Source: Alphaproteobacteria bacterium
Lineage (GTDB): Bacteria > Pseudomonadota > Alphaproteobacteria > Caulobacterales > Maricaulaceae
Direction of reading: 5' to 3'
Assembly: GCA_018222865.1 (NCBI GenBank)
Contig: JAAEZM010000006.1
Span: 62,001 to 126,000 of the forward strand
DNA length: 64,000 nucleotides
The stretch's first letter is position 1; each line of letters starts with the position of its first letter. The position numbers and the translations under genes are program-made. The notes under the pieces are model-generated. The model worked only from the letters and a program-made list of their open reading frames with translations, was not told where the DNA came from and did no database searches. Shown one piece after another: positions 45,191 to 47,239 of the stretch.

Positions 45191-46465
45191 ATGCCAGCTT
45201 ATATCAACTGGAAAACGATAACGGCGGCGATCATCGCGCTTTTATTGGGCGGGCTGGCCTGGCTGATTGCGCCGGCCTGGAGCTTTTTTGCCCATAGTGG
45301 TGAAGCCCCTTTCACGCCATTTGGCTGGGTAGAGATGCCGCAGAGCGAGGCGCCCTCGACCCAGATCGTTCATGACACGCGCTATCAGGACGCAAGTGAT
45401 CAGGCGATCGAGGCCCTGGCTGCCTGGCGTGCGCGCATTGGTGCGCCCTCATACTCGGCCGCCGTGTCCGTCGGCGGCGAAGTTGTATGGGAAGGCGCTA
45501 CGGGTTGGGCGGACCTGGCCGAGGAGCGCGCTGTTGATACCGGCGATCTTTATCGTATTGGCAGTACCTCCAAGGCGATAACCGCAATCGCCCTGGCCCG
45601 TCTGGTCGATCAGGGTGTGATTGACCTTGATGCGCCGCTTTCGAGCATTTTTGAGGACCTGCCGAATCCGCAATGGGCGGAGATTACGCCGCGCCAGCTC
45701 GCCTCTCACATGGCCGGTGTGCCGCATTATGACGGGGTGACAGAGGTCCGCGGCCTGTATCAGATGATCCGGCTGAGCAATCATTTCGCTGATATCCGCG
45801 ATGCACTGGCTCAGTTTGATGAAAGCGAAATGCTCTTCGCCCCGGGCGAGGCGTTCGAATATTCCTCTTTGGGCACGGTTTTGCTCGGCGCGACGATGAG
45901 TGAAGCGGCCGGCATGTCCTATCGCGATATCATGCGCCAGGAGGTGTTTGAGCCGGCCGGCGCGCTCAATACGATCGTGGCACCGCGTGATCCTGGTGAG
46001 CCCATGGTGGAGCTCTATTATCGCGACGATGACCGCTATCGCGTCTGGCGACCGGTCGATCTGTCGCATCGTCTGCCGGGCGGGGGCTGGGCCTCTTCGC
46101 CAGCCCAACTGGTACAGATGGGCGCGCTGATGCTCGATGAGACCTTTATTTCTCCGGAAACCCGGGAGGCGTTCTGGACGCCGCAACGCCTCAATAATGG
46201 CGAGGTCAACGAGCAGGGCTATGCCATTGGCTGGCGCTGGCGGGAATGGGAGATTGAAGGTGTCGGCGCGGTGCGCAATGCCAATCATGGCGGTGTGTCG
46301 CGCGGCTCTCAGTCCTGGCTCATGGTCTTGCCGGACTATGACATGGTCATCGCGCTGAACATGAACGGGCAGACCGATCCATTCTGGGAGTTCGGCGGGG
46401 CTTATGAGGAGATCGCCGCAGCCTTCATTCCTGTCGTGCAGTCAGCAGTACAAAGCCCACAATAA
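45191..46465 (+). CDS. Membrane-anchored serine hydrolase, beta-lactamase family
   Basis: A 424-residue protein with an uncleaved-looking N-terminal membrane segment (about residues 8-31) and a periplasmic beta-lactamase/PBP-fold domain. The nucleophile site is S-T-S-K in Y-R-I-G-S-T-S-K-A; the usual Y-x-N is replaced by Y-S-S (F-E-Y-S-S-L-G), and H-G-G-V-S-R-G-S forms the third motif. Probably an esterase or peptidase. The start follows AGGGGGAAG. An operator-like palindrome lies upstream. Confidence 0.86.
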   Translation: MPAYINWKTITAAIIALLLGGLAWLIAPAWSFFAHSGEAPFTPFGWVEMPQSEAPSTQIVHDTRYQDASDQAIEALAAWRARIGAPSYSAAVSVGGEVVWEGATGWADLAEERAVDTGDLYRIGSTSKAITAIALARLVDQGVIDLDAPLSSIFEDLPNPQWAEITPRQLASHMAGVPHYDGVTEVRGLYQMIRLSNHFADIRDALAQFDESEMLFAPGEAFEYSSLGTVLLGATMSEAAGMSYRDIMRQEVFEPAGALNTIVAPRDPGEPMVELYYRDDDRYRVWRPVDLSHRLPGGGWASSPAQLVQMGALMLDETFISPETREAFWTPQRLNNGEVNEQGYAIGWRWREWEIEGVGAVRNANHGGVSRGSQSWLMVLPDYDMVIALNMNGQTDPFWEFGGAYEEIAAAFIPVVQSAVQSPQ

Positions 46466-46597
46466 CAGACAATCTCACATGTCCGGACACGAAAAAGCGT
46501 GCGTCCGGTCATGCGATTTGTTTCCTTCAGAGGCGGCTGACCGGATTGTCATCTTCGGGTCAGTCGCCCGAAAGCTTGTCTGTGTGAAGTTGGACAC

Positions 46598-47239
46598 ATG
46601 AAGAAGTATCGCGAAAAGCAATCCGAAAGCCTTGAGATCCGTCTGGGGCATTGCGCCAAGACGGAATTCATGGAGGCCTGCCGGGAGCGAGGTCTCACGG
46701 CGAGTGAGGTCGTTCGCGAATTCGTTGAGTCCTACCCGCAAGCCAAACTGAAAAGGCGCTGGTCCGTCTCGAAACCCAAATTTACGGAGCCAGTGATGAA
46801 TTTCTCAGCCGTTTTTCTGCTTTCAGCCGCCCTCGGCACTAGCGCTATCATGCCAACCGCTGCTACCGCGGATCGAAACGATCCCCATGAGAGCTTTGCG
46901 GAGATCGATCTGGACGGGGATGGTCGTTTCGACCTCGCCGATCTCTACGAAGCGGCCGGTCTCGATGCGGACGGGCATTTTACCCAGGCCATGCGTGACG
47001 ATGTTGTCGCCAATATCCACGCCTCCATCGAGGATCTGGACATGCTGGCCCAAACGCCGGTGCTCAATCCTGACTTCATCGAGCGGACGTTGCGTCAGGC
47101 GGAAGCCGGCGCCGTGCGCGGCGTGCAAGAGGCATTTCATGAGATCGACTACAATGCGGACGGGCATGTCAGCCAGTCGGAATACATTGCGCATTGGCAA
47201 AGCGGAACACGTCAGCTCGGTCCGAATAACGGCGAGTAA
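46598..47239 (+). CDS. Ribbon-helix-helix / membrane / EF-hand protein
   Basis: 213 residues in three parts. Residues 8-48 look like a ribbon-helix-helix DNA-binding unit: strand S-L-E-I-R-L, helix T-E-F-M-E-A-C-R-E-R-G, then S-E-V-V-R-E-F-V-E-S-Y. A basic linker precedes a hydrophobic segment (about 67-87), orienting the rest outward. Two calcium loops follow, D-L-D-G-D-G-R-F-D-L-A-D (104-115) and D-Y-N-A-D-G-H-V-S-Q-S-E (184-195). An internal ATG at 46796 (Met67) with GGAG upstream could also yield a secreted EF-hand protein with a signal peptide. Whether one or two products are made is unknown. Confidence 0.7.
   Translation: MKKYREKQSESLEIRLGHCAKTEFMEACRERGLTASEVVREFVESYPQAKLKRRWSVSKPKFTEPVMNFSAVFLLSAALGTSAIMPTAATADRNDPHESFAEIDLDGDGRFDLADLYEAAGLDADGHFTQAMRDDVVANIHASIEDLDMLAQTPVLNPDFIERTLRQAEAGAVRGVQEAFHEIDYNADGHVSQSEYIAHWQSGTRQLGPNNGE

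Follow-up and report, generated by a model that had tools for sequence, protein, structure and literature searches.

Gene locus and architecture of the encoded protein

The window analyzed in this study, a contiguous stretch of 64,000 nucleotides (G000:C11:62001-126000) from a marine bacterium assigned here to Maricaulis on the basis of its best-matching named loci, harbors an open reading frame for a protein of 213 amino acids, whose parts and associated DNA features are compiled in Table 1. The reading frame was confirmed, and the product corresponds to the single chain proposed in the first-pass annotation, namely a ribbon-helix-helix (RHH)-like unit followed by a basic linker, one membrane segment and two EF-hands. 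As deduced from the sequence and the structural model, a predicted DNA-binding domain and a membrane segment are present in one chain. The EF-hand assignment is based on a PF00036 match scoring 31.9 bits (cut-off 25.4) and on two canonical DxDxDG loops. A single hydrophobic stretch was identified at about residues 68-85. The PTAATA sequence closing the signal-anchor segment (residues 67-91) contains an AxA, signal-peptidase-I-like motif, and a cut is tentatively predicted before Asp92. A match to lanmodulin was dropped, as it reached 21.9 bits (E-value 1.4e-4) against a cut-off of 135.

Upstream, on the same strand, lies a gene of the Beta-lactamase family (PF00144) ending at position 46465, and the other neighbor is a Phosphodiest-family gene (PF01663) on the opposite strand. 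Judged from the strands of both neighbors, the gap of 132 bases between 46466 and 46597 serves the gene for the 213-residue protein. No sigma-70-like promoter was found between positions 46380 and 47320, and the RHH unit may therefore be either a repressor or an activator.

The AlphaFold2 model of the 213-residue protein had a mean pLDDT of 79.3, with confident RHH helices and a confident EF-hand part, and low confidence at residues 51-67 (pLDDT below 50) and 79-89. Helices were predicted at residues 18-31 and 35-45, with mean pLDDT values of 94 for residues 21-30 and 92 for residues 31-40; the RHH strand was left unassigned in this monomer model, in which the two helices appear at high confidence. 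Among the Foldseek matches listed for the full-length model, calmodulin-like and other EF-hand chains were found, none of them at an E-value of 0.001 or below, and VIA-align Z scores stayed below 8 throughout. Since the listed matches are EF-hand chains spanning residues 91-210 only, the fold search is uninformative on the RHH unit. The quality of the model obtained for a compact form of the protein (see below) was modest (pLDDT 71.5, pTM 0.35).

Table 1. Features of the gene for the RHH/EF-hand protein and of its upstream region (positions refer to the window)
Feature	Position	Strand	Remarks
Full-length protein, 213 aa	46598..47239	+	RHH, linker, signal-anchor and two EF-hands; long start ATG at 46598
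Ribbon-helix-helix unit, residues 6-46	46613..46735	+	Sub-threshold Pfam match; profile match; predicted helices; pN/pS 0.28
Variable basic linker, residues 47-66	46736..46795	+	33% mean pairwise identity; pN/pS 0.81
Hydrophobic signal-anchor / signal peptide, residues 67-91	46796..46870	+	Ends PTAATA, then DRND
EF-hand loop 1, DLDGDGRFDLAD, residues 104-115	46907..46942	+	PF00036 match
EF-hand loop 2, DYNADGHVSQSE, residues 184-195	47147..47182	+	PF00036 match
Candidate operator half-site 1, TGTCCGGACA, perfect palindrome	46480..46489	+	13/13 Maricaulis homologues within 1 mismatch
Candidate operator half-site 2, CGTCCGGTCA	46502..46511	+	22 bp from half-site 1, measured between centres
Internal start codon, Met67	46796..46798	+	Column invariant in 13 aligned Maricaulis sequences
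Internal Shine-Dalgarno CGGAG for Met67	46785..46789	+	Conserved across the family

Identity and conservation of the N-terminal unit

The first 66 residues of the protein matched the Pfam RelB profile below threshold (E-value 4.7e-4, 20.5 bits; 17.6 bits for the whole protein; gathering score 22.4), the match being limited to profile positions 2-36 of 82. A profile built from 22 family members and compared with solved chains recovered DinJ (9lew; E-value 1.1e-4) and pRN1 ORF56 (2.5e-3), followed at E-values of 0.06-0.8 by VapB26, ParG, RelB and other CopG/Arc/MetJ chains. Of the ten chains listed, two are not RHH proteins by name. By profile similarity, the unit is thus a member of the RHH superfamily at the level of the family, the window protein alone remaining below the RelB gathering score. 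A type II antitoxin of the RelB/DinJ kind was considered and rejected, as only part of the RelB profile is matched and the adjacent genes are those for the Beta-lactamase and Phosphodiest proteins and not for a toxin.

Conservation was evaluated for each part of the protein in an alignment of 13 of the 14 Maricaulis homologues (L011 was left out as near-identical to L008). The RHH unit is the most conserved part, with a mean pairwise identity of 73% and a pN/pS of 0.28. Identity drops to 49% in the EF-hand part (pN/pS 0.56), 40% in the hydrophobic segment (0.71) and 33% in the linker (0.81). The N-terminal unit, examined separately from the EF-hands as the first-pass annotation had advised, is hence under the stronger constraint, and the scenario in which the first 66 codons lack protein-level conservation and Met67 is the true start does not hold as far as the sequence can tell. 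The N-terminal RHH unit is real and conserved as a protein.

Distribution of the family and diversity of its exported domains

Near full-length homologues were detected in 14 of 19 genomes of the same genus, the window genome included. A match was found in 29 of the 61 relatives searched, and those outside the genus were mostly restricted to the N-terminal part. Within the order, 165 of 398 genomes contained a match to a profile of the N-terminal unit. At the level of the class, the proportion was 24 of 289, many of the weaker matches there representing short RHH proteins without a membrane segment. Named loci include Maricaulis, Parvularcula, Kordiimonas, Henriciella, Hyphomonas, Ponticaulis, Caulobacter, Brevundimonas, Phenylobacterium, Aminobacter, Roseibium and Ruegeria, among others. 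The architecture of RHH unit, membrane segment and EF-hands (RHH-TM-EF) recurs across the Alphaproteobacteria. For the family-wide analyses, 224 distinct open reading frames were reduced to 201 at an E-value of at most 1e-10, 195 with a hydrophobic segment and a length of at least 85 residues, and finally 171 at less than 90% identity; this set comprises the best-scoring matches and is not a random sample.

Following the hydrophobic segment, pattern matching revealed EF-hand loops in 134 of these 171 non-redundant members, TonB_C-like domains in 9 and other stretches in 28. Pfam assignments for the window protein together with 60 of 69 named proteins (alignment A5) yielded EF-hand_1 in 52 and TonB_C in 4 of the 61 sequences. 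Members in which a TonB C-terminal-like domain replaces the EF-hands behind the same RHH-TM unit and operator are L019, L079, L083, L085, L101, L102, L114 and relatives; Henriciella is the name attached to one TonB_C-like locus, L224. Compact members of about 105-123 residues carry one EF-hand, and the Pro and Ala at the end of their hydrophobic segment are invariant in the 22 sequences aligned (alignment A6: 21 of 24 short members plus one of 153 residues; L215, L241 and L245, frames without an intact EF-hand, were left out).

The pattern P[STKNGV]xA after the hydrophobic segment was present in 103 of the 171 members, compared with 18.4 in shuffled sequences. The looser AxA pattern was discarded as evidence (168 of 171 observed, 152.6 expected from shuffles), and only PxxA is informative. 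In the compact forms, the EF loop is located 11-13 residues past the PxxA motif in 34 of 49 cases.

The genome of L300 (G015:C1) carries two further RHH-TM-like paralogues side by side, and its sole exact copy of the operator decamer described below immediately precedes the RHH part of one paralogue. At L015 (G034:C136), the homologous frame stops shortly after the first EF loop, and a second family member lies beside it on the same contig; L015 is possibly a broken copy.

A probable second translation start at Met67

Of the 171 members, 113 have an in-frame ATG between the RHH unit and the hydrophobic segment; among the compact EF forms, it is present in just 6 of 41. Pairing of the internal site with the 16S tail, evaluated in 69 cluster representatives (of 111 clusters), averaged -5.23 kcal/mol, compared with -3.29 kcal/mol for synonymous recodings (z -7.4; 0 of 1000 recodings as low), and the nearest 5' starts averaged -5.39 kcal/mol. 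No such excess was observed for downstream ATGs (n=207, z +2.2), for ATGs within the RHH unit (n=61, z +1.1) or for the equivalent place in members without the ATG (n=43, z +0.2). The internal start with its own ribosome site, proposed beforehand for Met67, is therefore supported by a Shine-Dalgarno sequence conserved in the family; for the window gene alone the signal is not significant (-5.8 versus -2.2, P 0.157). The residues around the site vary by subfamily while AGGAG-like bases persist, and it appears to be the ribosome site, and not the peptide, that is selected. The long forms probably give rise to two products, as read from these sequence patterns, one being the anchored RHH protein and the other an exported protein.

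A candidate operator upstream of the gene

The two half-sites listed in Table 1 form a tandem pattern. Each of the 14 Maricaulis genomes carrying the full-length gene contains a single copy of it, directly upstream of that gene. As the pattern was derived from 13 of the 14 regions, its presence there holds by construction, and the test is its absence elsewhere in these genomes. It is absent from the other five of the 19 Maricaulis genomes, three of which are 65-89% complete, and the reversed pattern produced one match in all 19. The remaining four exact decamers of the window genome lie inside unrelated coding sequences.

Within the family, TGTCCGGACA was found with at most one mismatch in the 300 nt upstream of 106 of the 169 members having at least 150 nt of upstream sequence (dinucleotide shuffles, about 1.4) and exactly in 71 of 169 (shuffles, about 0.05). 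The same decamer was detected in 0/169 members in the first 300 coding nucleotides and in 0/165 in the next 300. Broken down by group, the operator precedes 13/13 Maricaulis genes, 9/9 TonB_C-like genes, 57/79 other long EF-hand genes, 10/22 longer and 5/6 short members with other exported stretches, and 12/40 compact EF-hand genes; no site within one mismatch was found upstream in 63 of the 169 members, including 28 of the 40 compact EF forms. A second site at +22 represents the commonest offset (44 of 106).

Across the 398 genomes of the order, the strict tandem pattern was located at 18 places in 18 genomes and the reversed pattern at none. Eleven of these places are before RHH-TM genes, and six before a signal peptidase I gene that lies beside a compact RHH-TM-EF gene. 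The remaining place is L312 (G546:C9:173397-173427), where a MaoC-family gene lies behind a perfect tandem; no RHH-family match was detected in that genome.

A wide regulon of single decamers was tried and rejected, the frequency of isolated TGTCCGGACA sites in the 19 Maricaulis genomes being near background (1-9 per genome, 93 in total, versus 2-8 and 69 for the reversed sequence). A relaxed tandem with three mismatches does not define a regulon either (80 matches versus 52 reversed in ten genomes). One genome, G527, showed 14 relaxed tandem matches and one reversed match.

The inverted motifs named in the first-pass annotation, TGTC-N12-GACA and TGTGT-N8-ACACA, are present at 46577-46596 and 46581-46598, respectively. 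Neither recurs in the 12 other Maricaulis upstream regions, and both are consequently taken as chance occurrences and not as control sites.

Covariation between an RHH strand residue and the operator centre

In RHH proteins such as Arc and MetJ, alternate residues of the strand face the DNA. In the family studied here, position X of the strand pattern K-K-S-E-X-L-E-V-R varies in concert with the central bases of the site. The ten-base sequence [TC]GTCATGAC[AG] lies upstream of all 14 members with Lys at X and of none of the 154 others, based on 168 members with a readable strand. Considering the 118 of these with a GTC-NN-GAC site, an AT centre was found at any such site in 14/14 Lys members and 3/104 others, and at the best site only in 13/14 versus 1/104 (Fisher p 2.8e-15); counted by cluster, the best site had an AT centre in 10/11 versus 1/64. 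The Lys members span several exported architectures, the EF-hand type included. In a tree of 45 RHH columns, the Lys residue needs five changes, of which supported branches force one, and one independent pair lies on supported branches; given tree support for a single change only, the Lys members are not independent of each other.

The code is incomplete, as several members without Lys have CC, CT or TG centres instead of CG. Where the middle residue of the strand is Asp and not Glu (SLDIRL; L084, L091, L095, L105, L110 and L118), the centres are CC, CT or AG and never CG; L096 (RLDIRV) has CG. The SLDIRL members are probably one clade, and the Asp is a possible second element of the code.

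The covariation argues that the RHH unit itself would bind the site, which matches the prediction for direct recognition and would not obviously result from an unrelated regulator. Self-regulation, suggested in the first-pass annotation on account of the two inverted motifs, is supported on other grounds: those motifs are not conserved, and the support comes from the family-wide operator together with the covariation of residue and base (14/14 versus 0/154).

Linkage of compact members to a signal peptidase I gene

Among 57 short family genes (at most 165 residues) followed by 1.1 kb or more of sequence on the 3' side, 51 face a convergent signal peptidase I match, at a distance of no more than 13 nt in 32 cases. 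The sequence [TC]GTCCGGAC[AG] is present within 260 nt upstream of the signal peptidase match in 48 of the 51. The six short loci without such a match are L015, L233, L153 and L250, plus L265 and L036, which are fragments or non-members. Twenty of the 51 loci originate from named Caulobacteraceae, 28 from genome family f3, taken for Caulobacteraceae from shared contigs, and 3 are unassigned. Tail-to-tail pairs of a compact RHH-TM-EF gene and an operator-preceded signal peptidase I gene can be seen at L302-L306, L130, L176, L228, L229, L232 and L243, among others. Peptidase_S26 was confirmed by Pfam for the three proteins submitted. All eight f3 genomes examined contain one or more further S26 matches elsewhere, indicating that the signal peptidase beside the compact gene is a second enzyme.

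For the long members, no signal peptidase was found nearby in any of the 40 loci whose 3' flank extends over 1 kb or more (tblastn, E-value 1e-6, two queries). The Maricaulis gene of the window likewise has no signal peptidase gene nearby, and the two S26 matches of its genome are located on another contig. They are adjacent to each other in one open frame of 547 codons (G000:C2:174047-175462).

The signal-peptidase-like motif and the linkage in Caulobacteraceae, both missed by the first-pass annotation, suggest that cleavage, besides ligand binding, may be part of the mechanism.

Proposed mechanism and alternative explanations

Taken together, our reading of the sequence data, which we hold to be reasonably probable, is that the gene encodes a membrane-anchored, autoregulating RHH protein acting on tandem TGTCCGGACA and carrying exported EF-hands, probably controlled by signal-peptidase cleavage. 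The RHH domain is predicted computationally to bind the tandem operator before its own gene, and the topology implies that the EF-hand domain would be exported. Translation from Met67 would yield an exported EF-hand protein devoid of the RHH unit. The anchored form would be cut at the signal-peptidase-I-like motif, the remaining stub then probably being cleared within the membrane, and this cleavage would decide whether the RHH domain stays tethered, is released or is destroyed. Export or processing of the EF-hand domain would in this manner feed back on transcription, and the compact relatives in Caulobacteraceae would also control the second signal peptidase I gene. By analogy with RsiV and AyrRA (see below), an anchor that stays intact could signal that signal peptidase is in short supply or that the outer domain has failed to fold, and cleavage of the anchor could free or destroy the RHH domain. 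Calcium binding by the EF-hands may, as a putative step, set folding or cleavability beside the cut site. It is conceivable, if somewhat doubtful, that the protein serves more specifically as a gauge of signal peptidase: an RHH repressor on a cleavable anchor, whose cut rate would set expression of its own gene and of the second signal peptidase I of Caulobacteraceae, with the EF-hands making the cut depend on periplasmic calcium or completed folding.

A one-component calcium sensor resembling ToxR or CadC, staying uncleaved in the membrane and altering RHH binding directly upon calcium binding without proteolysis, is one alternative. The EF-hand loops found in 134 of 171 members past the hydrophobic segment and the spacing between PxxA and the EF loop in compact forms (11-13 residues in 34 of 49) are in line with such a sensor. 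However, the 28 other and nine TonB_C-like exported stretches are attached to the same RHH unit, often together with the same operator (10/22, 5/6 and 9/9), and calcium is consequently not the common denominator; the sensor would also leave the PxxA motif and the signal peptidase linkage unexplained, and we regard it as rather unlikely. The multitude of cargo types sharing the RHH unit, and the restriction of the strict tandem operator to the gene itself in those Maricaulis genomes having it, would fit a homeostatic function, in which the RHH unit is an autorepressor on an exported protein, the product level is kept constant, and the segment has no role beyond export of the cargo, with no signal being sensed. 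This explanation seems unlikely to us as well, as it does not account for the operator before the neighboring signal peptidase I gene in 48 of 51 Caulobacteraceae loci.

It is quite improbable that the operator is the target of some other, unlinked regulator, with the RHH unit being a cytoplasmic extension that serves, for example, dimerization or membrane targeting. The tandem site before the MaoC-like gene of G546, one of 18 strict sites and in a genome without an RHH-family match, speaks in its favor, as does the fact that RHH binding to the operator is a prediction, but the strand residue covaries with the operator centre, and in Maricaulis the site tracks the gene (14/14 versus 0/5, with the pattern derived from 13 of the 14 and three of the five genomes being 65-89% complete). 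A product starting at Met67 only, with the upstream 66 codons untranslated, would be compatible with an internal ribosome site about as strong in the family as the upstream one (-5.23 versus -5.39 kcal/mol). It conflicts with the RHH unit being the most conserved region (pN/pS 0.28) and with the compact EF forms, which keep the RHH unit and mostly lack the internal ATG (present in 6 of 41), and is highly improbable.

Relationship to known regulatory systems

Arc and MetJ are members of the RHH (MetJ/Arc) superfamily, and the family presented here resembles RelB/DinJ, CopG-like proteins and ParG in its profile match over the strand and two helices and in its palindromic operator. To our knowledge, the RHH proteins described so far are soluble. 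The Maricaulis-type chain differs from that superfamily in adding a hydrophobic segment and an exported domain, and no toxin gene adjoins it.

With ToxR, CadC and TcpP (PMC10269533) the family shares, by its predicted topology, a DNA-binding domain on one side, one membrane segment and a sensor-like outer domain. A survey of transmembrane transcription regulators named the helix-turn-helix as the most common DNA-binding domain, and neither 'ribbon' nor 'RHH' occurs in its main text (PMC10269533). RsiV of B. subtilis and C. difficile likewise combines a cytoplasmic regulator, a membrane segment, a signal-peptidase site at the junction and a ligand-binding outer domain; once lysozyme is bound, signal peptidase cuts first at the junction of transmembrane and outside parts, and RasP acts second (PMC9044953). 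The RHH proteins present a signal peptidase motif at the corresponding junction, as a motif only. RsiV differs in being an anti-sigma factor that binds lysozyme (PMC9044953), and cleavage of the RHH protein is only predicted.

The AyrRA system of S. aureus documents that cells can monitor a shortage of signal peptidase (PMC5727409). AyrRABC is comparable in its transcriptional response to insufficient signal peptidase, but it employs a separate AyrR and a relay, AyrA, and induces an alternative release system instead of a signal peptidase adjacent to the regulator (PMC5727409). CaBP of C. vibrioides is a periplasmic, exported, sigV-linked EF-hand protein tied to gene regulation; it differs in its length of 133 residues and its ordinary N-terminal signal peptide, and 'ribbon' does not appear in the text of that paper (PMC13171946). 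Further EF-hand proteins of C. vibrioides, having one or two EF-hands each and masses of 11.9-25.2 kDa, were mentioned, among them a probable transmembrane protein (PMC13171946, 2026).

In the open-licence literature, no paper joining ribbon-helix-helix with EF-hand was found. Among titles and the beginnings of abstracts, nothing like the family was retrieved for RHH combined with signal peptidase or with transmembrane or periplasmic, and nothing like the RHH-TM family for membrane-bound or one-component regulators. A compact feedback from the envelope state to a gene, as proposed for the RHH-TM-EF protein, is apparently undescribed.

Biological significance

If the proposed mechanism is true, operator, DNA-binding domain, membrane segment, processing site and exported domain would form a one-gene circuit within one short locus, to which the second start would add the exported part alone. 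The RHH-TM family occurs widely within a large group of environmental bacteria, and its DNA code is partly readable from the sequence. It has long been asked how Gram-negative cells adjust their signal peptidase capacity and their exported calcium-binding proteins to demand, and the family would make this question testable in laboratory Caulobacter.
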